DNA of 64,000 bases from Alistipes sp. (GTDB lineage Bacteria; Bacteroidota; Bacteroidia; Bacteroidales; Rikenellaceae): contig JAFTOU010000006.1 in the NCBI GenBank assembly GCA_017463615.1, positions 62,001-126,000 of the forward strand. Reading direction: 5' to 3'. The first letter of the stretch is position 1. Each line of letters starts with the position of its first letter. The notes beneath the pieces are model-generated. The model did not search any database, was not told the DNA's origin, and saw only the letters and a program-made list of their open reading frames with translations. Positions 12,699-61,560 of the stretch are shown piece after piece. Both the position numbers and the translations under genes were made by a program.

Positions 12699-12758
12699 AA
12701 GAAAGAATTTTAGGTTATTAAATAAGTTTTTTTGGATGTTTTCACATGCAACAACACA

Positions 12759-12790
12759 CAAAGTTAGGAATTTACGAAGTAAATTGCAAA
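12759..12790 (-). promoter_or_regulatory. Promoter of the first SusC/SusD operon
   Basis: On the minus strand TTTG (12790-12787), 20 bases, TAACTTTG (12766-12759): a full match to the Bacteroidota primary-sigma pattern. Transcription would start near 12753, leaving a leader of about 55 bases before the ATG at 12698. Confidence 0.75.
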
Positions 12791-12814
12791 CAAATCTTCA
12801 TATTTTTTGCACTA

Positions 12815-18467: not shown

Positions 18468-18560
18468 CGACAATACTTATAGGGTGCAGTCAGAACTTAT
18501 AGTTCCAACTGCACCCTATAAAACTATCGCGTAGCGATACCTTGATATAGCCAATAGCTA
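18468..18560. repeat. Dispersed hairpin repeat between convergent genes
   Basis: Same family as the copies at 13001-13260: stem TTATAGGGTGCAGT with ACTGCACCCTATAA (18477-18522), then CTATCGCGTAGCGATA and CTTGATATAGCCAATAGC. The stem bases differ from the 13-kb copies while pairing is kept. It may serve as a two-way terminator here. Confidence 0.7.
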
Positions 18561-32605: not shown

Positions 32606-32730
32606 TTTTATCGTGATAGTACGCCACCTACGGCACATCACTCAAATCCCCGAATGGGAAATACATTTTAGTATGTCCCATCCGGGGATTTCTCACGATG
32701 TACCGTATCTGGCGCACTCTGACGATAAAA
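32606..32730 (+). repeat. Palindromic element copy 1 (about 125 bp)
   Basis: Folds as one long hairpin. Outer arms TTTTATCGT...CGCCA and TGGCG...ACGATAAAA; conserved GGCACATC and CACGATGT shoulders; inner arms AAATCCCCGAATGGGA and TCCCATCCGGGGATTT; apical ATACATTTTAGTAT. It begins directly after the recQ stop and may terminate that transcript. Confidence 0.8.
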
Positions 32731-32731
32731 T

Positions 32732-32858
32732 ATTTTGGCGTGAAAAGTACGCATTTGCGGCACATCCCTCAATTCCCTGAATGGGTAGTACGCCTTAGTA
32801 CAGCCCATCCAGGGAATTTTCACGATGCCCCACAACTACGCACTTTTGACGCCAAAAT
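32732..32858 (+). repeat. Palindromic element copy 2 (127 bp)
   Basis: One base after copy 1, same orientation. Ends ATTTTGGCGT and ACGCCAAAAT (with CGCA-rich arms), shoulders GGCACATCCCTC and CACGATGCCCC, inner arms AATTCCCTGAATGGG and CCCATCCAGGGAATT, apex GTACGCCTTAGTAC. Confidence 0.8.
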
Positions 32859-37326: not shown

Positions 37327-37333
37327 CTAAAAA
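37306..37333 (-). terminator. Hairpin over the cysD stop codon
   Basis: TTTTTAGATTGC and GCAATCTAAAAA form a 12-base perfect stem around a loop of 4 or fewer bases, ending in T-rich sequence on either strand. It could end or weaken transcription between cysD and cysN. Confidence 0.45.
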
Positions 37334-38235
37334 TAGCCCTCTCTCTTCTTTTGCTCCATACTGCTCTCTTGGTCGAAGTCGATTACGCGGGTGGTGCGTT
37401 CGGAGCGGGTGGTGGTCATCATCTCCTCAACAATCTTCTCCACCGTGTCGGCGTGGCTCTCAATGGCGCCCGTTAGGGGGTAGCAGCCCAGTGTGCGGAA
37501 GCGGACGGTGCGCATCCTCGCCCTGTCGCGCAGCTGCTTGGGCATACGGTTGTCGTCCACCATAATCAAGTTGCCGTCAATATCCACTATAGGTCTTTCG
37601 GCGGCGAAGTAGAGCGGCACGATAGGTATCTTCTCCAGACGGATATAGTGCCAGATGTCGCTCTCGGTCCAGTTGCTGAGCGGGAAGACGCGGATGCTCT
37701 CGCCGCGGGCTATGCGGGTGTTGTAGATATCCCACAGCTCGGGGCGTTGGCACTTGGGGTCCCACTGCTGGTAGGCGTTGCGAAAGGAGAAGATACGCTC
37801 CTTAGCGCGACTGCGCTCCTCGTCACGACGCGCACCTCCAAAGGCGGCATCAAAGCCGTGGCGCTTGAGGGCGGCGAGCAGCGCCTGGGTCTTCATCAGG
37901 TCTGTGTGCACCTTACTGCCGTGGATAAAGGGGTTTATACCCCGATTGTACACCTCGCGGTTGTACTCCACGATAAGGTTCCAGCCGTGCTGGCGGGCGT
38001 AGTTGTCGCGGAAGGTAATCATCTCGCTAAACTTCCACTTGGAGTCTATGTGCATCAGCGGGAAGGGTACTCTGCCAGGATAAAATGCCTTCTCGGCAAG
38101 GCGTGCCATAACGGACGAGTCCTTGCCTATGGAGTAGAGCATCACGGGGTTGGAGAACTCGGCTGCAACTTCGCGGATGATATGTATTGCCTCCGATTCA
38201 AGAGCACGGAGGTGGCTCAGACTATACTTTTCCAT
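37327..38235 (-). CDS. cysD: Sulfate adenylyltransferase, catalytic subunit
   Basis: 302 residues, the normal length. PP-loop [17 protein letters not shown] (about 36-52), [31 protein letters not shown], and a C-terminal block [19 protein letters not shown]. It forms APS with the CysN GTPase. Starts 43 bases after cysC. Together with cysC and cysN it supplies PAPS. No PAPS/APS reductase (cysH) or sulfite reductase follows, so the product is probably for sulfonation. Confidence 0.95.
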
Positions 38236-38278
38236 ACTTAAGGGATGTTCTCAAAATAATCTCCAAAATCAACTCGCC

Positions 38279-38884
38279 CTAATTTATAAAACCTCCCTTA
38301 ATACGCTCTCTGATGCTGTTGTATATATGCTCGGCACAGCTCTCGGCGCTGCGCTGGGTGGTGTCTATGGTTATCTGTGCGCTCTGAGGTGGCTCAAAGG
38401 GTGCGCTTATGCCCGTAAAGTCGGCTATCTCGCCCCGTCGCGCTTGGGCATAGAGACCCTTTATGTCGCGCTGCTCGCAGACGGAGAGCGGGGTGGAGAT
38501 GTAGACCTCTATAAAGTCGCTGCTGCCGATAATCTGTCGCGCCATATTGCGCAGCTGCTGCGTAGGGGAGAGCAGACAGCAGAGGGTTATTATGCCCGTG
38601 TGGTTGTAGAGGCGCGATATGTGAGCTACGCGGCGGATGTTCTGCTCGCGGTCGGCAGCGCTGAATGTAAGGTCGCTGCTTATGCCACTGCGGATGTTGT
38701 CGCCATCAAGAATCTGCACGATATAGCCTTGGCGACTAAGTCTATGCTCTAAGGCTATGGCTACGGTGCTCTTGCCCGAGCCGGAGAGCCCTGTAAACCA
38801 GAGTGTTACTCCCCGCTGACGAAGCTGACGCTCCTTCTGCTCGCGGCTCTGCATACGGTCAAAGATAGGGTAGATGTTGTCCAT
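38279..38884 (-). CDS. cysC: Adenylylsulfate kinase
   Basis: 201 residues. P-loop FTGLSGSGKST (30-40), LDGDNIRSGISSDLTFSAADR (cut here for length; the APS-binding region, about 59-79), NIRRVAHI, and the lid region KGLYAQARRGEIADFTGI. It phosphorylates APS at the 3' position to give PAPS, the donor for the sulfotransferase at the end of the cluster. Overall length and motifs are standard. One base from the permease gene upstream. Confidence 0.93.
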   Translation of the reverse strand: MDNIYPIFDRMQSREQKERQLRQRGVTLWFTGLSGSGKSTVAIALEHRLSRQGYIVQILDGDNIRSGISSDLTFSAADREQNIRRVAHISRLYNHTGIITLCCLLSPTQQLRNMARQIIGSSDFIEVYISTPLSVCEQRDIKGLYAQARRGEIADFTGISAPFEPPQSAQITIDTTQRSAESCAEHIYNSIRERIKGGFIN

Positions 38885-38885
38885 A

Positions 38886-40376
38886 TTAGAAGCTCCAGAA
38901 GATGGGTATAAAGATTATTGATACTGCAAATGTTATGATGCTCAGCGGTAGGCCTATACGCACAAAGTCGCTAAAGCTGTAGCCGCCCAACCCCTGCACA
39001 ATCATATTGGTCTGATAGCCTATAGGTGTGCAGAAGCTCGCCGAGGCGGCAATACATATCGCTACGCATAGTGGCGTGGGGTTTATGCCCGCCTGCGAGG
39101 CTACGGAGAGGGCTACGGGAAAGGCGAAGGCTGCGGCTGCATTGTTTGTTATCAGCTCGGTGATGATGTTGGTGGTAAGGTAGATGGCTATCAGCAGTGC
39201 GCGTGGCGAGAGCGAGCCACTGAGTTCTATGAGCGATAGGGCTATAGCGTCGGCAAGCCCCGAGAGGGTCATCGCGCGACTTATGGCAAATGCCGAGGCT
39301 ATGGTTACAAGTATATCCCACGAGATAAACTTAGTATACTTCTTGGCGGGAAAGATGTTGCAGAATGCCATAATCACCGCCACCACCGCCGCCCAGAGGA
39401 ACATATCGCCCACCGTAGCCCCCACAACCATAACAACAAGCAGCAGGAGCGATAGCTGCCTCTTCCAGCGGGGTGCTTGCGGCTCGTGCTCGCGACCGTT
39501 GGTGATGATAAGGAATACGCGCGAGTCCGCCCATGTATCTACAAAGCCGCGCTCGGCAGCAAGCGTCAGCGTGTCGTTCTCCTTGTAGCTGTAGCCCTCA
39601 AGGTCGTCTAACTGCTCGCCATCGCGCCTTACGGCTATAATCTTTGCCCCATAGTGCTTGTGGAAGTCAAACTGCTCCATTGTGCACCTTATGCCCGGAA
39701 AGCGCGCAGCAAGGACAACCTCTACGATGTGGCTATCTATCCTTCGTGGCTCTACAACCTGCTCGGGCAGCCGCCTTGCACCAAAGAGGATGATATATCC
39801 CAACCCTGCCAGGGCGACTATGCCTCCCACCTTGCCAAGCTCAAAGAGGGTAAAGCCCGCAAGCCCTGCATCAAGCATCAGCGAATGTACGACAAGGTTT
39901 GTAGATGTGCCTATAAGCGTACACATACCGCCCAATATGGCGGCGTAGGAGAGCGGTATGAGGAACTTCTTGAGTGGCAGAGAGGCTCTGCTGCACCATG
40001 CCTTGATGTGGGGGATGAAGATTACTACAATAGGGGTGTTGTTCAGAAATGCCGAGATTGAGGCTACCGTCGGCAGTATGGTGGCATATCCGCGGCGGAT
40101 AGTGCTGCGGCTCCCAGCAGGGAAGAGTCGCTTCATAACTGGTCCTAGGCAGTCGCTGCGCCGAATACCCTCGCTTACAAGGAAGAGTAGCGCCACGGTA
40201 ACCATACCCTTATTGGCAAAGCCCGCCAGCGCATCGGCAGGGGTGAGTATGCCACAGCAGAGCAGCAGTACCACCACCGAGAAGAGTATAAGTCCAGGGC
40301 GGAGATACCCTTTAACCAGTAGGTAGAGCATCGTGACTATCGCCAGTAGCACTATCGCTATATCAACATTTTCCAT
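38886..40376 (-). CDS. SLC13/DASS-type anion permease with RCK_C domain, probable sulfate importer
   Basis: 496 residues from the ATG at 40376 (MENVDIAIVLLAIVTMLYLL). The two halves of the divalent-anion:sodium symporter fold carry the ion-site motifs FLNNTPIVVIFIPHIKAW and ITNNAAAAFAFPVALSVA, plus GTSTNLVVHSLM. A TrkA-C/RCK_C-like domain (HIVEVVLAARFPG to KENDTLTLAAERGF) is inserted at about 215-290, as in SLC13-like sulfate permeases of bacteria. It likely imports sulfate for the CysC-CysD-CysN enzymes and leads the operon. Confidence 0.87.
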   Translation of the reverse strand: MENVDIAIVLLAIVTMLYLLVKGYLRPGLILFSVVVLLLCCGILTPADALAGFANKGMVTVALLFLVSEGIRRSDCLGPVMKRLFPAGSRSTIRRGYATILPTVASISAFLNNTPIVVIFIPHIKAWCSRASLPLKKFLIPLSYAAILGGMCTLIGTSTNLVVHSLMLDAGLAGFTLFELGKVGGIVALAGLGYIILFGARRLPEQVVEPRRIDSHIVEVVLAARFPGIRCTMEQFDFHKHYGAKIIAVRRDGEQLDDLEGYSYKENDTLTLAAERGFVDTWADSRVFLIITNGREHEPQAPRWKRQLSLLLLVVMVVGATVGDMFLWAAVVAVIMAFCNIFPAKKYTKFISWDILVTIASAFAISRAMTLSGLADAIALSLIELSGSLSPRALLIAIYLTTNIITELITNNAAAAFAFPVALSVASQAGINPTPLCVAICIAASASFCTPIGYQTNMIVQGLGGYSFSDFVRIGLPLSIITFAVSIIFIPIFWSF

Positions 40377-40471
40377 TGCGCTCTGCTTGCTAATTAAACA
40401 GAGTTCTGAGAAAAATGTGCCAGAGTGCCCTTGGTGGCTATGTGCGGGAAGAATGTTGCTATTTAGCACAT

Positions 40472-41067: not shown

Positions 41068-41548
41068 AGAGTCTGATATAGAGGCTATTATGGCTATCAT
41101 TGCCGATGCGCAGGCGTTCCTGCGTAGTTGCGGCGTGGACCAGTGGCAGGATGGCTATCCGACGGCGGAGATTATAGCCAACGATATAGCCGCAGGACAT
41201 AGCTATGTGCTTGAACAGCAGGGCGTTGTTGTCGCTACGGCGGTAATCTCTACCGCGGGCGAGAGTACCTATAGTACTATTGAGGGTCGCTGGCTGAACG
41301 ATAATCCCTATGTTGTTGTCCACCGCCTTGCCGTCAGCGCCTCTGTTCAGCGCACTGGTGCTGCGCGGGAGTTGATGCTCTATGCCCAGAATATCGCCCT
41401 TGAGAGCCACCTTGCCGACCTGCGCGTAGATACACACGCCGATAATCTTGTAATGCAGCGGCTACTTTCCGATTTGGGCTACCGCTACTGCGGCATAATA
41501 ACGCTTGAGTCGGGCTCTTTGCGTAGGGCGTATCAACTGACACTATAA
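41039..41548 (+). CDS. GNAT-family N-acetyltransferase
   Basis: 169 residues. GNAT pattern: RKSKESDIEAIMAIIADAQ at the start, YVLEQQGVVVATAVIS as central strands, VVHRLAVSASVQRTGAAREL as the acetyl-CoA loop (the usual Q/RxxGxG/A written QRTGAAR), LRVDTHADNLVMQRLLSDLG and a final YRYCGIITLESG. Typical of small single-domain acetyltransferases whose substrate cannot be predicted. Its start lies within the preceding membrane-protein gene, so the two are coupled. Confidence 0.85.
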   Translation: MMQRVIRKSKESDIEAIMAIIADAQAFLRSCGVDQWQDGYPTAEIIANDIAAGHSYVLEQQGVVVATAVISTAGESTYSTIEGRWLNDNPYVVVHRLAVSASVQRTGAARELMLYAQNIALESHLADLRVDTHADNLVMQRLLSDLGYRYCGIITLESGSLRRAYQLTL

Positions 41549-41553
41549 AAGAA

Positions 41554-41577
41554 AAGGGCTTGCAATTGCAAGCCCTT
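41554..41577. terminator. Two-way terminator between convergent genes
   Basis: A 24-base perfect palindrome (AAGGGCTTGCAA with its complement) between the acetyltransferase stop and the phosphoesterase stop. Confidence 0.7.
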
Positions 41578-41582
41578 CATCT

Positions 41583-43328
41583 TTAGAATCCAGCGTAGGA
41601 GGATGTGAATGCCTTTTCGGTGTATACATTAACCTCGCCGCTGCCGGCAACGGTGTGCGTTGCGCGGACGGTCCAGTTCTTCTCCTGGGCAGGGTCGCCA
41701 CAAGGAGCTTTGATATACCAGTAGTGCTTCAGACCCTTATTCCAAGTGGTTGTGTTCTTGCCCTTCTCGTTGAAGAAGAAGGCTGTAGAGCACATATCGG
41801 CAAGGTTGTAGTTTACGCGGGTCATCTTGTGAGCCACGCCATCAACAACAAGCTCTACCTGCCAGTTGGTCACATCGTCGTTCCAGATAGTTGCAATAAA
41901 GCAATTAGCCAAATCTGCGCGACCAGAGGTCTTGATGTTAGAGCCACCGCCAGTACCACCTGCAGTCCAGCTATAGACATACTTGCTACCATAGCTGTCG
42001 TTGCCGTTATAGACGCGCATCTGCGTGCCTGAATTCATATTAGTACCCTTAGCAACCCAGTTGTGGAGCGTTGCACCCTTAACCTCGTAGATGCTATATC
42101 CATTTGGAGAGCCATCTACGCCAATGTTGCTGGTCCACCAGCCACCGCAAGCAGCGCCGTGAACATGCTCCATAACAGGCTGTCCGCCCTTGGTTCTGTA
42201 GTTGGTGTGGATGTAGTTCTCTGGATAGTGGGTGTGACCGATGAAGATATGCGCCTCCTTGAACTGAGTCAGAAGCTGCAGCACATCGGCATAGCCCTTA
42301 TCCTTATTTACATTGCTACCTCCGCTGCTACTACCTGCGCGGAAAGGAATGTGACCAGAGAGGATAACCATCTTCTCTGCCTTGTTCTCCACCATCTCAA
42401 GGTCTTTCTCAAGCCAAGAGATCTGCTTTGACGAGTAACCTGCGTCGTAAGTACAGGTCATAGAGTCGCCAAAACCGCTTGTGCCAGTGTGGACAACATT
42501 GTCCATAACCACAAAGTGCACCTTGCCGCGATCAAACGAGTAGTCGGTAGGACCGACATTGTCAATATATCGCTGCACAGACTCAGCGTCGTTCTGACAC
42601 TCAAGCGAAGCCTCGTGGTCGTGGTTACCGATACAGTTGAAAATCGGAATAGAGACACCATTGTTCAGCTTGATGCTTGAGCAGAGCTTCGCCATAGTAG
42701 GCCACAGAGCTACATTGTCAAAGGTTATATCGCCCATCGTGATGGCATAGGCGTTGGTATAACGATTCTCTGATGTCTGAGCCGAGTTGATAGTGGCGCT
42801 AATATCCACCAGCGTCTCGTCTCTGAAACGATCAGCCTCCGAAGCCACCTCGCACTGAGGGTCACCGATAGCGATAATGGTAAACTCCTCCTCTACTGCA
42901 GGCAGTGGAGTGAGAGTCCAGTCGTTGCGGTTCTGACCGCTTGCCATAACTCGCTTTGTAGAGTAGAAGAATGGACGACCATTCTCGGCATCTACAGGCA
43001 CCTGATACCCTGCAGGAATAGTGAACCATACCTGCGTAGCCCAACGGTTTGTAGGGAGCTGGTAGACACCATTAGCATCTGTCTTGGCGAAGTTTGTACC
43101 GTCTGTAACAACTACGCCAGGGATACCCTTGCCACTTACAGAGTCAGTGATAAGACCGAAGATGTTGTTACCACTCTCAATCGTAGTACCGTTGATTTCG
43201 GTCGTTGTGGTGTTCTGATTGCCGCCTCCAGGAGTGTTATTTTCGCCTCCATCAATGACCTTCTCAGAACAAGCAACCCCGCAGAGCAGGGTCGCTGTTA
43301 AAAGAAAGAATTTTAGTTTACCTAACAT
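41583..43328 (-). CDS. Calcineurin-like metallophosphoesterase lipoprotein
   Basis: 581 residues. Lipoprotein signal MLGKLKFFLLTATLLCGVAC, a Gly/Asn/Thr-rich linker, a beta-sandwich N-domain with a transthyretin-like turn (GLITDSVSGKGIPGVVVTDG), then the phosphoesterase core: IIAIGDPQ, AITMGDITFD, FNCIGNHDHEA, VILSGHIPFR and HIFIGHTHYPE. A C-terminal beta domain closes the protein. The metal ligands are complete. It would hydrolyse a phosphomonoester or diester at the cell surface or in the periplasm. Third gene of the second SusC/SusD operon and its only enzyme, so the imported ligand is probably phosphorylated. Confidence 0.92.
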   Translation of the reverse strand: MLGKLKFFLLTATLLCGVACSEKVIDGGENNTPGGGNQNTTTTEINGTTIESGNNIFGLITDSVSGKGIPGVVVTDGTNFAKTDANGVYQLPTNRWATQVWFTIPAGYQVPVDAENGRPFFYSTKRVMASGQNRNDWTLTPLPAVEEEFTIIAIGDPQCEVASEADRFRDETLVDISATINSAQTSENRYTNAYAITMGDITFDNVALWPTMAKLCSSIKLNNGVSIPIFNCIGNHDHEASLECQNDAESVQRYIDNVGPTDYSFDRGKVHFVVMDNVVHTGTSGFGDSMTCTYDAGYSSKQISWLEKDLEMVENKAEKMVILSGHIPFRAGSSSGGSNVNKDKGYADVLQLLTQFKEAHIFIGHTHYPENYIHTNYRTKGGQPVMEHVHGAACGGWWTSNIGVDGSPNGYSIYEVKGATLHNWVAKGTNMNSGTQMRVYNGNDSYGSKYVYSWTAGGTGGGSNIKTSGRADLANCFIATIWNDDVTNWQVELVVDGVAHKMTRVNYNLADMCSTAFFFNEKGKNTTTWNKGLKHYWYIKAPCGDPAQEKNWTVRATHTVAGSGEVNVYTEKAFTSSYAGF

Positions 43329-43349: not shown

Positions 43350-45131
43350 CTACCAACCGTGGTTCTGCTTGATGTTTGGATTCACGTTCAGAACGCCCTG
43401 TGGGATAGGACGAACATAACGCTTGTCACTCCACTCCAGCTTATAGTTATAAGTAAGGAAGCCCTCTGGAGAGAAAGAGTGGTTCTGATCAGCAGTAGAA
43501 CCTGTTACGTTGTAACCCAAGCCTGGCTTAGGCTCACCCTCAAAGGTGTAGGTAGCACCGTTGAACTCCATACCTGCGCGTGCAGACTCTGGAACATAAA
43601 CTCCCAACCAACCCTGGTTGTTAGTCTGACGATCAACGATGAGGTTACCCAGCTTCCAACGATAGAGGTCCATCTCACGGAGACCCTCGCCGAGGAGCTC
43701 TACAGTACGCTCACGACGAATCTCAGTAAGAACATTTGAAAGGTTGCCATAGTAAGCCTTCAACCAACCGCAATCCCAAGCACCGTCAGGATAGATATTG
43801 GTAACGCCTGCGCGTGCGCGGAGAGCACCAACGGTCTTGTCCCAATCGTCCTTAGAGAGGTTGCCACCATTGAGCTCAGCCTTAGCCTCTGCCAGGTTGA
43901 TAAGTACCTCACCGTAGCGAAGAATTGGATAGTCGTTGTCGTTCTTACCCTTAGAGTAGTTCTCCTCCTTCTCGATAGAGAACTTAACATTCTGATAGAA
44001 GTTGTAAGTGTAAGTGGTGTTGGTGTTCTTAAGAAGCTGCTCACCATTGGTCTTAGTGTACATATAACCTGGGTGGTGTACGCAAGCCTTCAGACGAGAG
44101 TCACGACCCTCAAACTCCTCAGAGATAAGCACCTTACCCTCGTGAGTGATAGGTGTACCGTCAGCGTTGAGGTAGTGGTTCATCATCAGCTTGGTAGGAG
44201 ATACCTGCTGGTCATAAGTAGATGAGTTTACAACCCAAGTAAGCTCGTGCATACGAGCAAGCTCGCCACCGTCATAGTCACTCCACCAGATAGTCTCTGG
44301 AGAAGCTGCCAGGTTGGTGTTGTGGAACAGATCGTAGTAATCAGCGTGGAGTGAGAAGTTACCGCTGTTAATCAACTCCTCAGATGCGTTAACGCACTCA
44401 GTAAGGAAGTCGTTAGCAGACTCGTACTGGCCATTCCAAGCAGCATTGGTAGATGGGTTCACAGAGTGATACTTACGGAAGGTACCCTCGTAGAGACATA
44501 CGCGGCTCTTGAATGCCAAAGCAATCCACTTGTTGATAACGCCATTGTACTTGCTGTCACCAGAGAGGTTCTGGCAAGCGAAGTTAAGATCCTCAAGAAC
44601 CATGTGCATTACATACTCACGATCGTCACGACCTGCGTAGAGAACCTCGTCCTCAACATCCAGTGGATGGTCAATCCAAGGCACATCACCGAAGGTCTGA
44701 ACCTTTGCATAGTAGAAGTAAGCACGCCAGAAACGAGCAACTCCCTGATAGTGGTTGTAAGTCTCCTCAGAAACATTCTTCTGAGCGCGTGACATATTGG
44801 TAAGGAGAATATTAGCACGACGGATGTTACGCCAGTTGCTAACAGCCCAGCTACCCTGCTTCTCAGAGTTCCAGATACCTGGACGGTAGTAGTCTGAAGA
44901 GGTCTTTGAACAGAAGAGGTCTGACCAAGAATCGCTATATCCCAGACCGTCTGCAGTTGGCTGATAAGACTGAATCAGACCGTTGCAGTAGAGCTCAAGC
45001 TCAAGCTCGTTCTGGAAATATGTATCAGCTGACATCTTGTCGATAGGCTCCACAGTGAGGAACTTCTCGCAAGATACGCCCGTGAAGGCTACCGCTGCTA
45101 CAACAAATAAATTTAATATACTCTTTTTCAT
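43350..45131 (-). CDS. RagB/SusD family nutrient-binding lipoprotein
   Basis: 593 residues. Lipoprotein signal MKKSILNLFVVAAVAFTGVSC, then EKFLTVEPIDKMSADTYFQN, a standard SusD start. Core helices ARFWRAYFYYAKVQTFGDVPW, ILRYGEVLINLAEAKAE, TEIRRERTVELLGEGLREMDL, and a C-terminal VRPIPQGVLNVNPNIKQNHGW. It forms the lid of the SusC transporter encoded 12 bases upstream. Codon use in this operon leans to codons common in highly expressed genes, more so than in most neighbours. Confidence 0.96.
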   Translation of the reverse strand: MKKSILNLFVVAAVAFTGVSCEKFLTVEPIDKMSADTYFQNELELELYCNGLIQSYQPTADGLGYSDSWSDLFCSKTSSDYYRPGIWNSEKQGSWAVSNWRNIRRANILLTNMSRAQKNVSEETYNHYQGVARFWRAYFYYAKVQTFGDVPWIDHPLDVEDEVLYAGRDDREYVMHMVLEDLNFACQNLSGDSKYNGVINKWIALAFKSRVCLYEGTFRKYHSVNPSTNAAWNGQYESANDFLTECVNASEELINSGNFSLHADYYDLFHNTNLAASPETIWWSDYDGGELARMHELTWVVNSSTYDQQVSPTKLMMNHYLNADGTPITHEGKVLISEEFEGRDSRLKACVHHPGYMYTKTNGEQLLKNTNTTYTYNFYQNVKFSIEKEENYSKGKNDNDYPILRYGEVLINLAEAKAELNGGNLSKDDWDKTVGALRARAGVTNIYPDGAWDCGWLKAYYGNLSNVLTEIRRERTVELLGEGLREMDLYRWKLGNLIVDRQTNNQGWLGVYVPESARAGMEFNGATYTFEGEPKPGLGYNVTGSTADQNHSFSPEGFLTYNYKLEWSDKRYVRPIPQGVLNVNPNIKQNHGW

Positions 45132-45143
45132 ATCTTATATACA

Positions 45144-48100
45144 TTAGAAAGTAATATTCAAACCGAAGGTGAAGGTTCTAAACATAGGGTAAGAATAACC
45201 CTGACCTGCACCAGAGAGACCAGTTGCACCACCAGCGTTAAAGTCGGTATCACCAGCACCAATTACCTCAGGGTCAAACAGCTTAGTGTGCTTGAACAGG
45301 TTAGATACGGTAAATACATTCTCGCCAGTGAAGTATACCTTCAGCTTCTGGATGTGCCACTTCTGAGTGAGCTTAGTAGGGAAGGTATAGTCAATAGTCA
45401 GGTTCTTCAGACGGAGGTAAGATACATCCTGCATGTAGTAGTCGTTCTCGTATGCGAGAGGACCTACGTTACGGTTTGCAGCGTAAGCTACAGGACGAGT
45501 CCAGTATGCACCTGGGTTAGTTACTACCCAGTTCTCAGTTGAGTAATCAACATTTACGCGGTCTGTAGTGTGAACCTTAGGCAGGTAGTCGTATGGACGG
45601 TTGTACATACCCCAGAAGAAACCAGACTCCTGATCAGGATACCAGTCACGCTTCATAACACCCTGGAAGAAGAGGCTCAGGCCAATACCGTTCCAGTTTG
45701 CAGAGAGGTTGAGACCGTAGTGATAGCGAGCGCGCTCGTTACCAACGATTGCAAGGTCACCGTGATCCTCCAGAGTACCCTTACCAGTGTTGATCTGACC
45801 GTCACCATTGAGGTCAAGGAACTTAAGGTCACCGGCAAATGCACGGAAGTTAGAACCGTTCTTGTGGAATGCGTCCTTAGACCAGTTGAGTGCCTCCTCA
45901 TTGCTCAAGAAGTAACCGTCGGTCTTGAAGCCCCAAACATCGCCAAGCTCCATACCCTCATAGAAGGCGTAGATGTTACCAGACTCGTTAGAGAACTTGT
46001 GGATCCACATGCGGCTATCCCATACAGCGAAACGAGCAGAGTAGTTGAAGTCCTTGCCACCAACCTTGAAGCTATCGCGCCAAGTCAGAGCAGCCTCCCA
46101 ACCCTTAGTCTTCAGAGTACCGTAGTTGATCTGTGGTGACTCCTCACCCAGAACTGCTGGATACTCAGGACCAGTTGTAATCATATCGGTAGTATACTTC
46201 CAGTAGATATCACCCGAGAATGAGAGACGGTTGCGGAGGAAGTCCAAATCCAAACCGATATCGTATGTAGTAGAGGTCTCCCAAGTAAGTGATGGAGAAA
46301 CCATACCATTAGTAGTTACATAAGGAACCTTAGAGCCGTTGATAATCTCAGAGGTCTTGTCTACAGACCAGAGGTCCATAAATGCGTAGTCAGAGATCAT
46401 AGAGTTACCCAGTGAACCTACGTTAGCGCGAACCTTGAAGTTATCCAACCACTCGTCAGACCAATCCATCCAAGGCTCGTCAGCAAGACGCCAACCAATT
46501 GAACCTGAAGGGAAGAAACCCCAACGCTGGTTAGTAGGGAAGCGAGACTCACCGTCATAACGACCTGCGAACTCAAAGATATAACGACCAAGAAGTGAGT
46601 AGTTTACACGGGCAAATACACCAACTGAGTTGTGATCGTAACCATCATCCTCTACAGAGTACTCCTGAGAGTCCATCAGCTCAAATGAAGGACGGCTTGG
46701 GTCCATCAGGCCGAGGCGCTGGAGGTAGAGACGACGATAAGACTTCTTCTCAAGGTTCCAACCAGCCATGAAGTTAAGGTCGTGGTTCTTACCGAGCTTA
46801 GGAGTCCAAGTCAGGACTGCATTTGCAGTGATGTAATCAGTGTTGTAACGCCAGTCAGACTTGTAAGAAGAGGTGTTGTAGTCCTCAGCACCACCAGGAC
46901 CAGAGTAACCGGTCTGGATAGGAGATACGCGAACCTGAGTGTTACGGTCTGCCTTGTAAGTGAAGTCACCGACAATCTTCAGTACATCCTTAATAGGCTC
47001 TACAGTCAGAGTAGTAGTTGAAGATGCGTACATCTTGATATTCTCCTGATAAGACTGGTCGCCAGAGAATGCGCCGTACATTACAGCTGCACCATAGAAT
47101 GACAGAGTACCATCCTCGTTGTAAGGAGTGTAGATAGGCTGACCACGGTGCTCAAACTGACGGAGGATTGGCTGTGAACCACCTGTTACCATTGGCTGGT
47201 GATACTTCTGGTGGAAGATAGAAGTGTTGTTACCCAGGGTCAACCACTTGAAGATCTTAACCTCACCCTTAGCACGGAGGTTGTAAGCGTTGTACTGCTC
47301 GTTGTTGAACTCGTAGATACCATCCTGGTTGTAGTAACGACCTGATACTGAGTACTTAACGCGCTCAGAAGAACCTGCTACAGAGAGGTTGTGAACATGG
47401 CTAACATTCATATCCTTGTAGAAGAGGTCGATCCAGTTGGTAGAGCCGTAGTATGCGTAGTTACCAGCCTTAGTGTAACCGTGCTCAACACCATAGAGGG
47501 CGTAGTTAGGATCCTTCTTACGAAGGTACATCTCCTCCTTATATGGACGAGCAACCTCGTTACCATTCTCGTCAACACCAAGAACGGTACCGTAGGTATC
47601 CGAACGGTTGTTCACGTTACCTGGGAGCTTACCAGAAGAGGTTGGGGTACGAGAGTCGTTCTGGAAGTAGAGTGCAAAGTTCTCCAACCAGTCAGAACCG
47701 TCAACAACAAGGTGATCCTCCCACTTAGTAGTACGAGAGTTGAGAGATACAGAACCATTATAATTAATAGTAACCTTGTCCTTAGCTGGGGTCTTGGTTG
47801 TTACGAGGATTACACCATAACCACCTCGTGCACCGTAAACGGCAGCAGAAGCAGCATCCTTCAGTACAGCGATGTTCTCTACATCCTCAGGGTTTACAGA
47901 GTTAAGGTCACCCTCAACACCGTCGATGAGAACGAGTGCAGAACCACCCTGACCGAGGGAGATGGTCTTGCCAGTACCTGAAGAGGTAGATGTACGCATT
48001 GATACAGACTGTGAACCACCACGGATGTAGATATCACCACCCTGTGTAGGCTTACCGTCTCGCGGCATCACATTCAGACCTGGAACCATACCCTGCAGTG

Positions 48101-48557
48101 AACGAGAAACGTTAGGGGTTGAACGGCTCTCCAGCTCCTCACCGCCGAGGTTCTCAACAGCACCTACGAGCTGAGCCTTTTTCAGAGTACCGTAACCTAC
48201 AACGACAACCTCGTCCACAGCTGTGCTGGACTCAGTAAGTGCGAAGTCTACAACTGAGCGACTGCCCACTGTAGCCTCAACTGTTGTATAACCGAAGAAA
48301 GAGCACTCCAGCACATCCTTAGCTGAAGCATTGATAGAGAACTGACCGTTAGCGTCGGTTGCTGTACCGGTCGATGTACCCTTAACAACGATTGCTGCAC
48401 CTGGCATAGGAGCCTTAGTAGCAGCGTCGATAACTGTACCGGAAACAGTTCGGTTCTGTGCCACAACATTTCCTGATGCGAGCAATGCGATCGCACACAG
48501 TACACCTGTCAGCACCTTTCCGAATCTTCCGGAAATCGATAGTAAGACGTGTTTCAT
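45144..48557 (-). CDS. SusC/RagA family TonB-linked outer-membrane transporter (phase-variable candidate)
   Basis: 1137 residues. Signal peptide (MKHVLLSISGRFGKVLTGVL...), regulatory-like domain RTVSGTVIDAATKAPMPGAA, TonB box region DEVVVVGYGTLKKAQLVGAV, plug VLIDGVEGDLNSVNPEDVE and VLKDAASAAVYGARGGYG, then the barrel, ending FRTFTFGLNITF. Together with the SusD lipoprotein it imports a ligand that the phosphoesterase of the operon presumably processes. The only promoter I can find lies about 185 bases upstream inside an inverted-repeat-bounded segment, in the orientation that would express the operon. If that segment flips, the operon should be silent. Confidence 0.96.
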   Translation of the reverse strand: MKHVLLSISGRFGKVLTGVLCAIALLASGNVVAQNRTVSGTVIDAATKAPMPGAAIVVKGTSTGTATDANGQFSINASAKDVLECSFFGYTTVEATVGSRSVVDFALTESSTAVDEVVVVGYGTLKKAQLVGAVENLGGEELESRSTPNVSRSLQGMVPGLNVMPRDGKPTQGGDIYIRGGSQSVSMRTSTSSGTGKTISLGQGGSALVLIDGVEGDLNSVNPEDVENIAVLKDAASAAVYGARGGYGVILVTTKTPAKDKVTINYNGSVSLNSRTTKWEDHLVVDGSDWLENFALYFQNDSRTPTSSGKLPGNVNNRSDTYGTVLGVDENGNEVARPYKEEMYLRKKDPNYALYGVEHGYTKAGNYAYYGSTNWIDLFYKDMNVSHVHNLSVAGSSERVKYSVSGRYYNQDGIYEFNNEQYNAYNLRAKGEVKIFKWLTLGNNTSIFHQKYHQPMVTGGSQPILRQFEHRGQPIYTPYNEDGTLSFYGAAVMYGAFSGDQSYQENIKMYASSTTTLTVEPIKDVLKIVGDFTYKADRNTQVRVSPIQTGYSGPGGAEDYNTSSYKSDWRYNTDYITANAVLTWTPKLGKNHDLNFMAGWNLEKKSYRRLYLQRLGLMDPSRPSFELMDSQEYSVEDDGYDHNSVGVFARVNYSLLGRYIFEFAGRYDGESRFPTNQRWGFFPSGSIGWRLADEPWMDWSDEWLDNFKVRANVGSLGNSMISDYAFMDLWSVDKTSEIINGSKVPYVTTNGMVSPSLTWETSTTYDIGLDLDFLRNRLSFSGDIYWKYTTDMITTGPEYPAVLGEESPQINYGTLKTKGWEAALTWRDSFKVGGKDFNYSARFAVWDSRMWIHKFSNESGNIYAFYEGMELGDVWGFKTDGYFLSNEEALNWSKDAFHKNGSNFRAFAGDLKFLDLNGDGQINTGKGTLEDHGDLAIVGNERARYHYGLNLSANWNGIGLSLFFQGVMKRDWYPDQESGFFWGMYNRPYDYLPKVHTTDRVNVDYSTENWVVTNPGAYWTRPVAYAANRNVGPLAYENDYYMQDVSYLRLKNLTIDYTFPTKLTQKWHIQKLKVYFTGENVFTVSNLFKHTKLFDPEVIGAGDTDFNAGGATGLSGAGQGYSYPMFRTFTFGLNITF

Positions 48558-48712
48558 AATTTTCAGTTTGTAATTAAATTTTTAATTCTTCATCGGCTGC
48601 AAAACAGCTTCAGAAGAGCGCACAGTTCGAAACACACTGAAAATCTGAATAACGGTTTTAAGGTTGTTTTTTGTTTTTGTTTTTGTTAAAATTGTTTGCT
48701 TTTTGCCTGCCT

Positions 48713-48873
48713 CATCTCTTTTTAAGAGAGGTATGCGGATACAAAGATAGTCAAATTTTCTCAACAAGCAAATTTTTTTCACTTTTTTCTGTTTTGGGTG
48801 TGTTGTTCAAAAGAGTTGCAAATTCTGCTAACTGGCTGATAGTGTGTACTGCTCCCTCTCTTAAAAAGAGATG
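48713..48873. promoter_or_regulatory. Invertible promoter segment with perfect 19-bp inverted repeats
   Basis: The left repeat (48713-48731, CATCTCTTTTTAAGAGAGG) and the right repeat (48855-48873) are exact reverse complements. Between them are 123 bases that hold one promoter, now pointing left into the susC gene. The repeats are themselves partly symmetric around TTTTTAA, as expected for tyrosine-recombinase crossover sites. A tyrosine recombinase gene is directly adjacent, and its last six codons and stop (48861-48873) are in the right repeat. The plus strand of the segment has no TAnnTTTG, so the flipped state should not drive susC. Confidence 0.88.
48742..48772 (-). promoter_or_regulatory. 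Promoter of the second SusC/SusD operon, inside the invertible segment
   Basis: Minus strand TTTG (48772-48769), 19 bases, TATCTTTG (48749-48742). Transcription from about 48736 leaves a leader of about 180 bases that contains the left inverted repeat. Confidence 0.82.
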
Positions 48874-49763
48874 GACTTTAGTACTATCTTGTTGGCGATG
48901 TCCACTGCCGAATTATCTAACGACGCGAGATATATTCTGGTAGTGGACTCGTTGTTGTGCCCTAAGGCGCGGCTTATCGTGGCGACGGAGACCTGCTGGG
49001 CGTAGGCTATGCTCGCCCAGCTGTGGCGGGCAACATAGAGGGTCAGTGGCGTTGCTATGGATGCCATCGTGCCGATAGTCTTCAGTGCGCTGTTTATGGC
49101 GTGGGAGGCGCTCAGATACTCTCTGCGCGGGTTTCTGCCCTTGATTATCGGGAAGATGTAGGGCGTGGATGGACTAAAATATCGCTCGGCAATCTGCGCC
49201 ATGCACCTCTCCCACTTTATCACAATCTGCTGCCCCGTCTTGCGACGATTGTAGACCAAGTAGCCGCTGCGAATGTCCGACCATCTGAGGTGGGCGATGT
49301 CTACGAACGCCATCCCGCGAGTGTAGAGGCTGAAGAGGAAGATGTCGGCGGCGAACTGTAGTCTGCGGTTGTCCTGCAGGTCAAGCTGCGCTATGCGACG
49401 AATATCCTCGGCGCGGAGGGCTCGCTTGGCGGTCTTGCTTGTGCCAGTATATGCACGCCTGAATGGGGCGTTGTTCGCTACTAAACCATCCTCTACGGCG
49501 CGGTTGTATATGGCGCGCAAGTTCCTGATATAGAACGAAATAGTATTCGCCGATAACCCTCTGTTGCGAAGATGATACTGATAGGCGACTACCATCTGCG
49601 AGTCTATCTTGCAGAGCGGTATATCCTCGCCACCCCGATAATTCATAAAACTTTTTACTGCTGCCATGTATGTCTCTGCGGCGCGAACTCTGCCACAACC
49701 ATATAGCCACTCAGACACCTGTGCCGCGTAGCGGCAAAGAGAGATGTTGTCTCTACTTTTCAT
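48861..49763 (-). CDS. Tyrosine recombinase, probable promoter invertase
   Basis: 300 residues. N-terminal SAM-like DNA-binding domain (KSFMNYRGGEDIPL, LSANTISFYIRNLRAIYN), then the catalytic domain: R149 (SLYTRGMAFVDIAHL), K175 (NRRKTGQQ), YVARHSWAS (Tyr243 where many integrases have His, with R246), LGHNNESTT (H269) and nucleophile Y278 (RIYLAS). The Tyr-for-His form is common in Bacteroidota chromosomal recombinases that flip promoters. There is no excisionase, att-like flank or phage gene nearby. Its 3' end is built into the right inverted repeat, so a flip leaves the protein unchanged. Inferred role: switching the adjacent promoter. Confidence 0.92.
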   Translation of the reverse strand: MKSRDNISLCRYAAQVSEWLYGCGRVRAAETYMAAVKSFMNYRGGEDIPLCKIDSQMVVAYQYHLRNRGLSANTISFYIRNLRAIYNRAVEDGLVANNAPFRRAYTGTSKTAKRALRAEDIRRIAQLDLQDNRRLQFAADIFLFSLYTRGMAFVDIAHLRWSDIRSGYLVYNRRKTGQQIVIKWERCMAQIAERYFSPSTPYIFPIIKGRNPRREYLSASHAINSALKTIGTMASIATPLTLYVARHSWASIAYAQQVSVATISRALGHNNESTTRIYLASLDNSAVDIANKIVLKSISF

Positions 49764-49879
49764 AATTCTTAAAATTTTTTAATTATTAAAATTTTCAACA
49801 ACTTTTTAGGTGTTTTAGGTGTGTTATTTGTCAAAAAGTTATAAAAAATAGGTAAAAAGCGAAGATTTTTAATAAAATG

Positions 49880-49911
49880 TTTGGCAGTTTGTAAAAAATG
49901 CTTTACATTTG
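49880..49911 (+). promoter_or_regulatory. Promoter of the fibronectin-III lipoprotein gene
   Basis: TTTG at 49880-49883, 20 bases, TACATTTG at 49904-49911. Confidence 0.75.
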
Positions 49912-50073
49912 TGTTGCAGTTTGAGACATACACCTCTGCAGATGTCTGTTCGGGCGGTCGCTCGTCGCTTTTGTAGAGTCTAAATCGGGATAACGAGAAT
50001 TAAGGAGAGGCAGGAATGCCTTACCTTGATTTTTGTTGTATTTTATTTGTATCAACCAGTAAAAAAAACTTTT
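49912..50073 (+). other. Long structured 5' leader
   Basis: About 155 bases between the predicted start of transcription and the ATG. It can form GACAT...ATGTC (49924-49947) and AAGGAGAGGC...GCCTTACCTT (about 50002-50030) stems. No reading frame of note. It may be a stabilising or regulatory leader; no known riboswitch was recognised. Confidence 0.4.
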
Positions 50074-53000
50074 ATGAAAATCAATCGCAAACTTATAGCT
50101 GCATTTGCTATGCTGTCGGTTGTCTTCGCTGCTTGTACAGAGACTGCACCTGATGTAGACGCTGGTATCAAGACTGACCTGGCAAAGCCTAGCAGTGTAA
50201 CTTGGGACGAGGGTGCCTCTTCAAAGACATCACTTGCCCTGACTTGGGATGCATCAGCTGCTATCGCTGCGGGCGCAACATCGTTCTCAGCACAGGTAGT
50301 TCGTCCTAATATGGATACTATGGGTGAGGGTGAGCTTCACGACTTTGTTACCCCTGACCAGTATGATGCTTCTACAACAACTGTTCTCGCAGTTACTACT
50401 AATTATGTAGGTTCTCCTTCTATCGCAGAGGGTGACGCTCCTTGCGACCAGGTAGTATTTGAGAACCTGGCAAACGGTAAGCAGTATATGCTCCGTGTTC
50501 GCGCAAACTACGCTAACTCTAACTACTCTGAGTGGGTATGGGTTACTACCGAGGCTGGTGAGCTCGCTCACATCAAGACCGGTAAGGGCCTTGTAGACCC
50601 TACTGAGCTTGACGACAAGACCCCTCCAACCGTAAAGGTTTCTGAGGTTACCGCTGGCGACGCTATCGTTACTTGGTCTACTACTAACTGGACTAACAAC
50701 AACGCTGACTTCGGTATGGCTTATAAGCTCATCGTAAAGAAGGGTAACGACCTTGTTGTAGCTTGGAATATCCCTGCAAACTCTGACATCTGGAGCTCTT
50801 ACGCTAAGAACGGTTGCGCATTCAAGCTCACCGCTCTTGACCCAGAGACTGAGTACAATGTTACTGTTCAGAATGTAACTGAGGGCACTGAGCCACTCGC
50901 TCCAACTACCTTCACTACTGCTAAGTCACAGGTTGTAACTATGCCTACAGCTGTTGCTGCTGCTGGCGATGTTATCCTCTATGAGGACTTCTCTGAGCTC
51001 TTCATCACTGCTGACCTCTCTCGTGGTGCTGCTGGTTACTCTTACGACAACCGTAACCTGATGGACGCTCCTTGGATTGCTGCTGGTGATGACCCAGTTA
51101 CAAACGATGTTGAGGGTAGAGGTTGCTACCTTGTTGACCCATCTACTGAGGTAGGTATGTTCAACACTATTAAGAAGTATATCGCTATTACTCGTCTTAA
51201 CACTTGGGGTATGATGTCTGAGGATAACACTAACGGTGCTATCTGTGCTCGTTCAAGCCATGTAAAGATGGGTGCATCTTCAAAGTGTGCTTGGCTCGTA
51301 CTTCCTGAGATCACTTGTCTCCAGCAGACTGCAACCGTTGAGCTCTCATTCGACGCTGCTCTCTACGAGACTGACCCAGGTTCTGTTATCGTTGAGATGC
51401 TTACTGGCTGTACTCAGGCTGACAACGCTTCTAACAGCTATGTAACACCATCTGACCGTATGACAATTGGTACTACCAGTGTTGTTCCAGCTTGGACTAC
51501 ATATACCTTTACTATTGATAATGTAAACAACGGCGCTCGTATCGCTATCGGTGGTAACCGTAATGGCGTAGAGGGTCAGCACCGTTTCTACCTTGATAAC
51601 ATCTCTCTGAAGGTTGTTGGCTACGGCGATCTTAAGCTCGCTGCTCCAAAGAACATCGTTGTAACTCCTACCGACACTACCGCTGAGGTTGTTTGGGATA
51701 AGGTAAATAGCGCTGAGGAGTATGTTGTTGAGTACACCAACACTTGCGACGTTTGTGGTCAGCCAGTTTGGACTGCACTTCCTGCAACTACAGAGCTTAA
51801 GGCTGAGATTGAGGGTCTTGCATTTGAGACTGAGTACTCAGTTCGCGTTAAGGCTGTTGCTGGCGAGGTAGTTTCTCCTTACAGCGAGCCTGTAGCATTC
51901 AAGACTCTTGCTGAGATTAAGAAGCTCAAGACTCCAAAGGATGTTGTTGCTGTTGCTGGTGTTGCAACTGTTGACCTTACATTCCCTCTGGTAACTAAGG
52001 CTACCGATTACGAGGTTTACAATGGCGAGACTAAGCTCTCAAGCTTGTTCACTGAGGCTGATAAGGTTATCTCTCTGACTGTTTACGGCCTTGAGGCTAA
52101 GACTGCTTACAACCTCCAGCTTAAGGCTGTAGCTCCAGGTTCTGACATGGAGGCTTCTGACCTTACTGAGGCTATCGCAGTAACTACTGGCGAGATTTCA
52201 GCTTATGTATCTGCTGGTTGCGAGTATAAGCCTACTTCACTGACTGCACAGTGGCCAGATTGGCGTGCAAACCACGCTTATACTATCCAGATTGCTGACG
52301 CTTCTGGCGTACTCGGCGCTTGGGATGTTACTTATTCTACTTCTAAGTGTTACGATGGCACAGGTGCTGCAATCGTTCCTACTCGTTTCACTTTCGGTGC
52401 GCTGACTCCAGAGACTGAGTACACAGTTTCTATCAAGGCTAAGGGAGCTGAGGATGTAGTTTACGCTTCTCAGGTACTCAAGACTGGCGCTGTTCGTGCA
52501 GCTGGTGAGAAGGATGTTTACTGGCAGGGCTTTGACGATTGCTTCTTCGGTGGCGATTCTCACAATATAGCATACGCAGTTATCAGTGCAAGCGCTGACG
52601 CTCTTAAGCTTATTGACTGGCCAACTACAACTGCTGACATCTATGCTAATGTAGTATCTACAACCGCTACTAACGGTCCAGGTTCTGCAGACCGTACTTC
52701 TGCTATTCAGTCTTACTGCAAGGCTGATGCAGAGTGTTCTCTCTACAACTGGACCATCGCAGGTTCTGAGGTTCACTCAGGTTACCTCAAGGTAGGTGCA
52801 GGTGGTACTATCGGTTCTATCACTACAGATGTTCTGGGTGAGAAGGCTAATGGTGCTTGCACAGTATCATTCAAGGTATCTCCTCGTTCTGATGGTAGCG
52901 TTTGTGCTGCTAAGGTTAAGCTCGTAGTTGTTCACGCAGATGGTACTGAGACTGTTGCAGCTTCTGGTCTGGATGTTCTTACCGACGGCGATGCTTTCAA

Positions 53001-53136
53001 GTATGTTTGGAAGTCTCACGAGGTTAAGGATGTACAGCTCCTTCCAACTGATAAGCTTAAGATTGCAGGCGACACTGAGGCTGCTTCAGGTGCATTCCGT
53101 TTCCACCTGGATGATATCCTCGTTGTAGCTCAGTAA
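50074..53136 (+). CDS. Large lipoprotein with fibronectin type III-like domains
   Basis: 1020 residues from the ATG at 50074 (MKINRKLIAAFAMLSVVFAAC, lipobox Cys). Visible modules: FN3-like units at about 30-180, 190-290 (ending NVTVQNVTEG...TTFTT), 525-625 (LAAPKNIVVTPTDTTAEVVW to EYSVRVKAVAGE), 630-720, and 720-810; jelly-roll-like regions near 300-520 (VILYEDFSELFI, HRFYLDNISLKV) and 820-1020 (FRFHLDDILVVAQ), each with the LDNI/LDDI ending of such folds. No catalytic motif. The codons are strongly biased to GCT, GGT, ACT and GTT, unlike most neighbours, suggesting very high expression. Surface adhesin or binding protein is an inference. Confidence 0.85.
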   Translation: MKINRKLIAAFAMLSVVFAACTETAPDVDAGIKTDLAKPSSVTWDEGASSKTSLALTWDASAAIAAGATSFSAQVVRPNMDTMGEGELHDFVTPDQYDASTTTVLAVTTNYVGSPSIAEGDAPCDQVVFENLANGKQYMLRVRANYANSNYSEWVWVTTEAGELAHIKTGKGLVDPTELDDKTPPTVKVSEVTAGDAIVTWSTTNWTNNNADFGMAYKLIVKKGNDLVVAWNIPANSDIWSSYAKNGCAFKLTALDPETEYNVTVQNVTEGTEPLAPTTFTTAKSQVVTMPTAVAAAGDVILYEDFSELFITADLSRGAAGYSYDNRNLMDAPWIAAGDDPVTNDVEGRGCYLVDPSTEVGMFNTIKKYIAITRLNTWGMMSEDNTNGAICARSSHVKMGASSKCAWLVLPEITCLQQTATVELSFDAALYETDPGSVIVEMLTGCTQADNASNSYVTPSDRMTIGTTSVVPAWTTYTFTIDNVNNGARIAIGGNRNGVEGQHRFYLDNISLKVVGYGDLKLAAPKNIVVTPTDTTAEVVWDKVNSAEEYVVEYTNTCDVCGQPVWTALPATTELKAEIEGLAFETEYSVRVKAVAGEVVSPYSEPVAFKTLAEIKKLKTPKDVVAVAGVATVDLTFPLVTKATDYEVYNGETKLSSLFTEADKVISLTVYGLEAKTAYNLQLKAVAPGSDMEASDLTEAIAVTTGEISAYVSAGCEYKPTSLTAQWPDWRANHAYTIQIADASGVLGAWDVTYSTSKCYDGTGAAIVPTRFTFGALTPETEYTVSIKAKGAEDVVYASQVLKTGAVRAAGEKDVYWQGFDDCFFGGDSHNIAYAVISASADALKLIDWPTTTADIYANVVSTTATNGPGSADRTSAIQSYCKADAECSLYNWTIAGSEVHSGYLKVGAGGTIGSITTDVLGEKANGACTVSFKVSPRSDGSVCAAKVKLVVVHADGTETVAASGLDVLTDGDAFKYVWKSHEVKDVQLLPTDKLKIAGDTEAASGAFRFHLDDILVVAQ

Positions 53137-60300: not shown

Positions 60301-60427
60301 ATTTTGTTGTCAGAATGGTGGATTTACGGTGCATCGTGATAATTCACTGGATGGGTTGTACTTGAGCGTACTACCCATTCGGGGAATTGAGGGATGTGCC
60401 GTAAATACGCCATTATCACAACAAAAT
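60301..60427 (-). repeat. Palindromic element copy 3 (127 bp, reverse orientation)
   Basis: Read on the minus strand it matches copies 1 and 2: ATTTTGTTGT end, GGCACATCCCTC, inner arm AATTCCCCGAATGGGT, apex GTACGCTCAAGTAC, CCCATCCAGTGAATT, TCACGATGC, ACAACAAAAT end. It touches the T run that ends the candidate 6S RNA. Confidence 0.8.
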
Positions 60428-61301: not shown

Positions 61302-61430
61302 ATTTTATTGTGAAAATACGGCATTAGCTGCGCATCCCTTAAATTTCAGTCGCGGCTGTACTCCCTTGGTACTATCCGCAACTGAAATTTCGCACGATGC
61401 ACACCTACTACCGCATTTTGACAATAAAAT
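61302..61430 (+). repeat. Palindromic element copy 4 (129 bp)
   Basis: Ends ATTTTATTGT and ACAATAAAAT; shoulders GCGCATCCCTT and CGCACGATGCAC; inner arms AAATTTCAGTCGCGG and CCGCAACTGAAATTT; apex TGTACTCCCTTGGTACTA. The inner arm sequence is entirely different from copies 1-3 but still pairs. Confidence 0.8.
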
Positions 61431-61432
61431 GT

Positions 61433-61560
61433 ATTTGTCGTGAAAAGCACGCATTTGCGTCACATCCCTTAAAAAGTAGCATCGGCTGTACCTTTTTTAG
61501 TACTATCCGATGCTACTTTTTTGCACGAAGCCCCGCAACTACGCACTTTTGACGACAAAT
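61433..61560 (+). repeat. Palindromic element copy 5 (128 bp)
   Basis: Two bases after copy 4, same orientation. Ends ATTTGTCGTG and GACGACAAAT; shoulders GTCACATCCCTT and GCACGAAGCCCC; inner arms AAAAAGTAGCATCGG and CCGATGCTACTTTTT; apex TGTACCTTTTTTAGTACTA. Confidence 0.8.

Follow-up and report, generated by a model that had tools for sequence, protein, structure and literature searches.

The operon that encodes a SusC/SusD pair and a phosphoesterase in this Alistipes genome is preceded by a short DNA segment bounded by inverted repeats, which raises the question of whether the operon is turned on and off by inversion of its promoter and, if so, which enzyme performs the inversion. Promoter inversion, by which surface genes are turned on and off in many gut Bacteroidales, had been predicted at this locus in an earlier note, and it is the best reading of the sequences examined here: a recombinase gene is adjacent to the segment, the locus recurs in eight other species (flipped in one of them), and homologous modules are found in both orientations. 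We consider it highly probable that an ON/OFF promoter inverton, flipped by the adjoining recombinase, controls the susC-susD-phosphoesterase operon. Flipping in this organism, the action of the enzyme on the sites, and the effect on transcription are what we infer from this arrangement. Coordinates are those of the window, the whole stretch of 64,000 nucleotides that was analyzed.

The promoter-bearing segment and its neighboring genes

41547..41577, minus strand: intrinsic-terminator-like hairpin ending the three-gene operon (by eye)
41583..43328, minus strand: calcineurin-like phosphoesterase with MetallophosN/C domains, 581 aa (PF16370, PF16371, PF00149)
43350..45131, minus strand: susD, SusD/RagB lipoprotein family, 593 aa (PF07980, 5.9e-40)
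45144..48557, minus strand: susC, SusC/RagA TonB-linked outer-membrane transporter, 1137 aa (TIGR04056, 7.2e-237)
48558..48741, minus strand: susC leader with a conserved inverted repeat (48559-48571/48632-48644), from an alignment of leaders
48713..48731, no strand: left (susC-side) inverted-repeat arm, putative recombination site, CATCTCTTTTTAAGAGAGG, the perfect 19-bp reverse complement of 48855-48873
48732..48854, no strand: putative invertible segment, 123 bp, between the arms; the homologous segment is flipped in G133/L078
48742..48772, minus strand: promoter match TTTG-N19-TATCTTTG, facing susC (ON), from a motif scan of both strands
48855..48873, no strand: right (recombinase-side) inverted-repeat arm, the exact reverse complement of CATCTCTTTTTAAGAGAGG, holding the recombinase stop codon TAA (48861-48863)
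48861..49763, minus strand: tyrosine recombinase, 300 aa, presumed invertase, facing the segment (PF13102 7.7e-18, PF00589 4.1e-13)
50026..53136, plus strand: divergent gene for an fn3-domain protein, a conserved neighbor (domain search; ATG probably at 50074, by eye)

The observations on which the earlier prediction had been built proved accurate. The two 19-bp inverted repeats are complementary at 19/19 positions and lie 123 nt apart at the coordinates claimed for them. A Bacteroidales-type promoter match, TTTG-N19-TATCTTTG at 48772-48742 on the minus strand, is the only one in the segment and faces susC, and no second promoter of the same type, strict or relaxed, was found on either strand of 48558-49900. 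The assembled genome thus has the ON orientation, as had been stated, as far as can be judged from sequence. The description of the genes as a SusC/SusD-phosphoesterase operon agrees with the domain matches and with the terminator-like hairpin after the phosphoesterase gene; because susC, susD, and the phosphoesterase gene are followed by this hairpin, the switched unit would comprise three genes.

No perfect 19-nt inverted repeat at a spacing of 20 to 500 occurred in any of 30 dinucleotide shuffles of the window, which itself contains two, and arm matches with up to three mismatches number two in the window against a shuffle mean of 0.01. In the whole assembly, which is 93% complete, the exact arm pair occurs only here. 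A match with three mismatches at C7:21506 of the same assembly has no second arm within the 1.1 kb of surrounding sequence that was inspected and was rejected as a chance match. Each arm is a near-palindrome, TCTCTT-TTT-AAGAGA, and no gene lies between the arms. The TTTG-type promoter consensus is known from the Bacteroides literature, and dinucleotide shuffling of the segment produced the strict motif on the minus strand in 51 of 20,000 trials. A scan of 48400-50200 for E. coli sigma-70-type promoters returned four sites (shuffle mean, 2.7); two weak matches outside the segment face susC, at 48904-48875 and 49384-49355, and both are taken as chance. Since the minus strand showed no terminator-like site from the recombinase gene to susC, the OFF state may be leaky through read-through from the recombinase gene.

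The recombinase gene, which is absent from the earlier note, adjoins the segment on its right and is on the same strand as susC. Its product combines a SAM-like DNA-binding domain with a Phage_integrase catalytic domain and therefore belongs to the tyrosine recombinase family; XerC-like and lambda-type integrase chains also match it. Because the stop codon (TAA) falls within the right arm, flipping of the segment would leave the reading frame unchanged. In the 12 of 36 ortholog pairs for which dS was computable, and with dS near saturation, dN/dS was 0.11 to 0.22, which suggests that the recombinase has been kept functional. The genome contains five tyrosine recombinase matches. No relatives of the enzyme were recognized in viral contigs by the patterns used, and no repeat pair of this type was present at the gene end of two distant genome-contig relatives (41% and 31%).

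We propose that the adjoining tyrosine recombinase brings the two sites together, exchanges their strands, and thereby inverts the segment, and that this inversion would be reversible. In the ON orientation, as assembled, the promoter would drive the susC-susD-phosphoesterase operon. Inversion would move the promoter to 48814-48844 on the plus strand, directed at the recombinase gene from its 3' side, so that in the OFF state the operon would lose its promoter and the recombinase gene would be transcribed in antisense. A feedback might then operate, in which the OFF antisense RNA lowers the recombinase and stabilizes OFF, the ON state having no such RNA.

Several other elements were observed around the locus. 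The susC leader contains a 13-nt inverted repeat, ATTTTCAGTGTGT / ACAAACTGAAAAT, which is paired at 12/13 positions, ends a single nucleotide short of the ATG and, in the mRNA, could form a fold over the start region. The half beside the start codon is invariant in seven aligned sequences (this genome and six others) and absent in G204 and G195. Between the recombinase gene and the divergent fn3 gene is a promoter-like sequence, TTTGGCAGTTTGTAAAAAATGCTTTACATTTG, at 49880-49911 on the plus strand, accompanied by a TGTAAA...TTTACA palindrome recognized by eye; at this position, 8/9 species have a promoter match. Genes for an anion symporter, an APS kinase, and a PAPS reductase are located at 37327-40469, about 1.1 kb past the operon, and matches to them lie near the locus in five other species. 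Hairpin elements are repeated at 32605-32858, 60301-60427, and 61302-61560 (arms of 27 to 35 nt, 57 to 74 nt apart, 80 to 83% complementary) and are perhaps short repeated palindromic elements. Nested inverted repeats, several of them with a common TTATAGGGTGCA, are found at 12812-13278 and 18477-18521; they include the second perfect 19-nt pair of the window, 12977/13115, which is inside a repeated element. An Rfam search of 45000-51000 gave a single match up to an E value of 1, at 17.7 bits, well under the gathering score of 45 bits.

The locus in other species and the wider recombinase family

The recombinase locus was searched for in 180 genomes of the genus and 101 relatives. The recombinase gene was found at the same place in eight other species (G028, G027, G212, G005, G144, G133, G137, and G153); G120 (L076), whose recombinase is identical to that of G027 (L037), was set aside. 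Contig ends break the arrangement in G137, where the recombinase gene and susC are on two contigs, and in G153, where the contig stops before susC. Among the orthologous loci, the segment between the arms is 114 to 137 bp long and the cores read CTCTTTTTAAGAG or CTCTTATTAAGAG, with the reverse complement of CTCTTATTAAGAG on the recombinase side in G133. The promoter is directed away from the recombinase in this genome (G000) and in G028, G027, G212, G005, G144, and G153, and in G137 it faces susC on the susC contig. The locus is thus ON in 7/8 other species. In G133 alone, which is also the most divergent, a promoter match TTTG-N20-TACTTTTG is on the opposite strand and points toward the recombinase, the OFF arrangement of the same locus. 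This could be an old fixed inversion.

Remoter susC loci, with 50 to 66% identity, are present in G204, G195, G042, and G186 (L094 to L097). In none of the four did the 2.5 to 2.7 kb upstream of susC contain a recombinase match or a promoter-flanking repeat of the same type; the one pair seen in L094, 15 nt long and A-rich, is far upstream of susC. In G204 and G195 (L094 and L095), the divergent fn3 gene is still adjacent, the recombinase gene and segment are absent between it and susC, and a TTTG-N18-TATCTTTG sequence faces susC about 300 nt upstream and aligns with the promoter of the switch locus. No promoter match facing susC was found in L096 or L097. Judging from these sequences, the same operon can do without recombinase and repeats and run from a fixed promoter, and the presence of a promoter match at the corresponding place in G204 and G195 supports the view that the promoter in the segment is the operon's own.

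The recombinase and segment form an island of divergence between the sister species G028 and G027 (L036 and L037), with 48 to 85% DNA identity per 100 bp, whereas the fn3 and susC genes are mostly 85 to 99% identical, with a few windows at 70 to 80%. For this pair, pS was 0.71 in the recombinase versus 0.11 to 0.47 in ten other genes, after exclusion of one further comparison (9618-12761) that had paired non-orthologous genes. Against G000, the recombinase had a pS of 0.65 to 0.81, at the upper end of the other genes of the window (about 0.44 to 0.80), and susC (0.32 to 0.41) and susD (0.39 to 0.51) were unusually conserved. Hyperdivergence as a general property of the recombinase was therefore rejected, since the gene is a clear outlier only in G028/G027, the close pair that was tested together with its neighbors, and for the same reason we present cassette exchange only as a possibility. 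A wider proposal, that the switch regulates itself through an OFF antisense RNA that lowers the recombinase and that recombinase and segment form an exchangeable cassette over the operon, appears to us conceivable but rather doubtful.

A repeat pair was found at the end of the gene in 43/87 related recombinase loci, compared with 0 to 1/87 in each of five dinucleotide shuffles and 2/87 on the 5' side; among the 44/87 loci with no pair, a short 3' sequence of less than 300 nt accounts for only nine. The scan left out L076 and L093 to L098, the latter being susC contigs (L098 repeats L086). The scan covered the interval between 40 nt before and 200 nt past the match end; in the 43 modules, the near arm starts 27 nt before to 118 nt after that end. 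A strict promoter is present in 15/43 segments (shuffle mean, 0.54; maximum, 3; 300 shuffle sets) and a strict or relaxed promoter in 27/43 (shuffle mean, 1.5; maximum, 5). By the strict motif, 7 modules are ON and 8 OFF; with relaxed matches included, 11 are ON and 16 OFF. The other 16 of the 43 modules comprise 12 with only a -7 motif (4 ON, 8 OFF), two with this motif on both strands, and two with none. In every one of the 43 modules with paired repeats, the recombinase is directed at the segment, so that the feedback described above could be general.

The first downstream genes of these modules (n = 40) include 6 susC orthologs, 30 genes that were scanned against Pfam, and 4 unscanned genes. 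The 30 scanned genes comprised 5 TonB/SusC-type receptors, 5 DUF3575 proteins, 4 NusG-like proteins, 2 FHA proteins, and one each of OmpA, a sugar transferase, an AAA protein, SrfB, and a helix-turn-helix protein; 9/30 had no Pfam match at an E value of 1e-5. Three related modules, L041 (G006), L040 (G059), and L043 (G016), contain more than two site copies, with arms of up to 41 nt, and more than one segment could flip in these.

Possible traces of both orientations and alternative explanations

Some assemblies bear possible marks of both orientations. The G153 contig reads, in order, recombinase, arm, segment, arm, and then the 3' end of the recombinase again, in reverse complement, which continues to the end of the contig; the arms match perfectly over 35 nt, also up to the last base. 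This is the sequence expected at the recombinase-side junctions, ON when read one way and OFF when read the other. The hairpin could also be a truly longer repeat, as arms of up to 41 nt exist in L041. A contig end lies within 600 nt on the 3' side of the gene at 12 loci, and in four of these, all belonging to this locus or to homologous modules, it falls exactly on a site. One of these is G137:C29, which ends exactly at the recombinase-side arm, its susC contig starting at the inner edge of the arm; the other contigs ending at a site are G011:C50, G047:C1, and G044:C10. Across 77 recombinase matches, contig ends within 300 nt were found 10 times on the 3' (segment) side versus 0 times on the 5' side (one-sided binomial P = 0.001). 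The corresponding counts were 12 versus 3 within 600 nt (P = 0.018), 13 versus 5 within 2,000 nt, and 19 versus 12 within 5,000 nt (P = 0.14). Among the ten ends within 300 nt, that of G136 cuts the recombinase gene itself, and those of G123:C13 and G001:C41 have no site, so that the sites account for only part of the excess. As indirect evidence from assemblies, these features point to the coexistence of both orientations in some populations, and they illustrate that coexisting orientations can be revealed, even without reads, by contigs that break off at recombination sites.

The alternative that deserves the most attention is that a former inverton has become locked ON in this lineage, the sites and recombinase persisting while inversion has fallen below any relevant rate. 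The predicted recombinase-side OFF junction had no match in the assembly of this genome, and the ON state of 7/8 other species and the fixed promoter in two remoter relatives are also in line with such locking. However, the 19-bp arms are still perfect, the recombinase frame is intact with low dN/dS among orthologs, G133 has the OFF state, and the G153 contig holds sequence expected at both recombinase-side junctions; we therefore regard a locked switch as improbable. It is less probable still that a distant recombinase flips the segment in trans and that the neighboring enzyme serves other sites. Five tyrosine recombinase matches in the genome would provide candidates, and Tsr19 of Bacteroides fragilis acts both locally and at a distance (PMC4747536). 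Against this, the assembly has a single site pair, a site is at the end of the gene in 9/9 species with the recombinase locus and repeats are at the gene's end in 43/87 related loci, and neither recombinase nor repeats are present at the four remoter susC loci examined.

The near-palindromic form of each arm, and the occurrence of integrases in the same enzyme class as the recombinase, might instead bring to mind an operator, a terminator, or remnant attachment sites rather than an invertible switch. We give this almost no credence, as there is no terminator-like site there and no gene between the arms, the homologous segment is flipped in G133, and the promoters of the family occur in both orientations. 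A promoter inverton served by its adjoining recombinase is thus the explanation that we retain.

If so, the locus predicts that a nutrient-uptake operon is run as a heritable on/off switch in a Bacteroidales genus. The SusC/SusD surface products are presumably a target for phages and immunity. The switch would be a one-enzyme, one-site-pair system in nine species that is readable from existing metagenome reads, with the two fixed-promoter relatives as a natural comparison, and if the feedback is true, the level of the invertase would depend on the orientation of the promoter.

Comparison with known inversion systems

The closest counterpart is Tsr19/BF2766 of B. fragilis with its promoter IVp-I (PMC4747536), in which, as here, an invertible promoter for a surface operon is located immediately downstream of a tyrosine recombinase. 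The likeness is one of arrangement: here too a promoter between inverted repeats faces a surface operon, and a tyrosine recombinase gene is directly adjacent and faces the segment. Tsr19 differs in that its operon is for exopolysaccharide and that it also flips a distant promoter, whereas the present locus has a susC-susD-phosphoesterase operon and a single site pair. Deletion of Tsr19 stopped inversion, and the OFF bias of IVp-I seen in the wild type vanished when a plasmid provided the enzyme; the authors suggested that expression of the enzyme is suppressed or that a regulatory mechanism exists (PMC4747536). The invertons of a defined gut community share the gene context seen here, with tyrosine-type DNA invertases, TonB receptors, and RagB/SusD nearby, and the same paper mentions a described Bacteroidota promoter motif inside invertons (PMC11892184). 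The strains in that study are different and flipping was measured from reads, whereas the present putative switch was recognized in assembled sequence. Apart from one possible exception, the invertases near invertons generally stood out of reach of transcription from the inverton promoter (PMC11892184), and the orientation of the recombinase here agrees with this rule. Invertible regions near susC/susD homologs, with orientations differing in inflammatory bowel disease, were likewise described in Bacteroidales, although in other species (39 genomes, mostly Bacteroides) (PMC10939037). An orientation-dependent effect on the enzyme, as in the proposed feedback, would fit the loss of the IVp-I OFF bias.

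Another B. fragilis enzyme, Tsr0667, is also a tyrosine recombinase. Its SusC/SusD shufflon, as described through PMC4747536, resembles the present locus in the phase variation of SusC/SusD by DNA inversion but involves three SusC/SusD clusters and nine other regions, whereas we found one site pair and one promoter. In contrast to the multiple sites and several SusC/SusD clusters of such a shufflon, a single exact pair occurs in the assembly.

The fim switch of E. coli (FimB/FimE, fimS) also has recombinase genes beside a promoter-bearing invertible segment; it differs in its two recombinases, its sites, and its pilus operon. The control of fimE is orientation dependent. Among the titles and opening lines of abstracts listed in our literature search, no publication dealt with this locus or with control of Bacteroidales invertases by antisense RNA, which is no proof that none exists. 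The system is well supported as a promoter inverton and, by its kind, would be an ordinary one for Bacteroidales.
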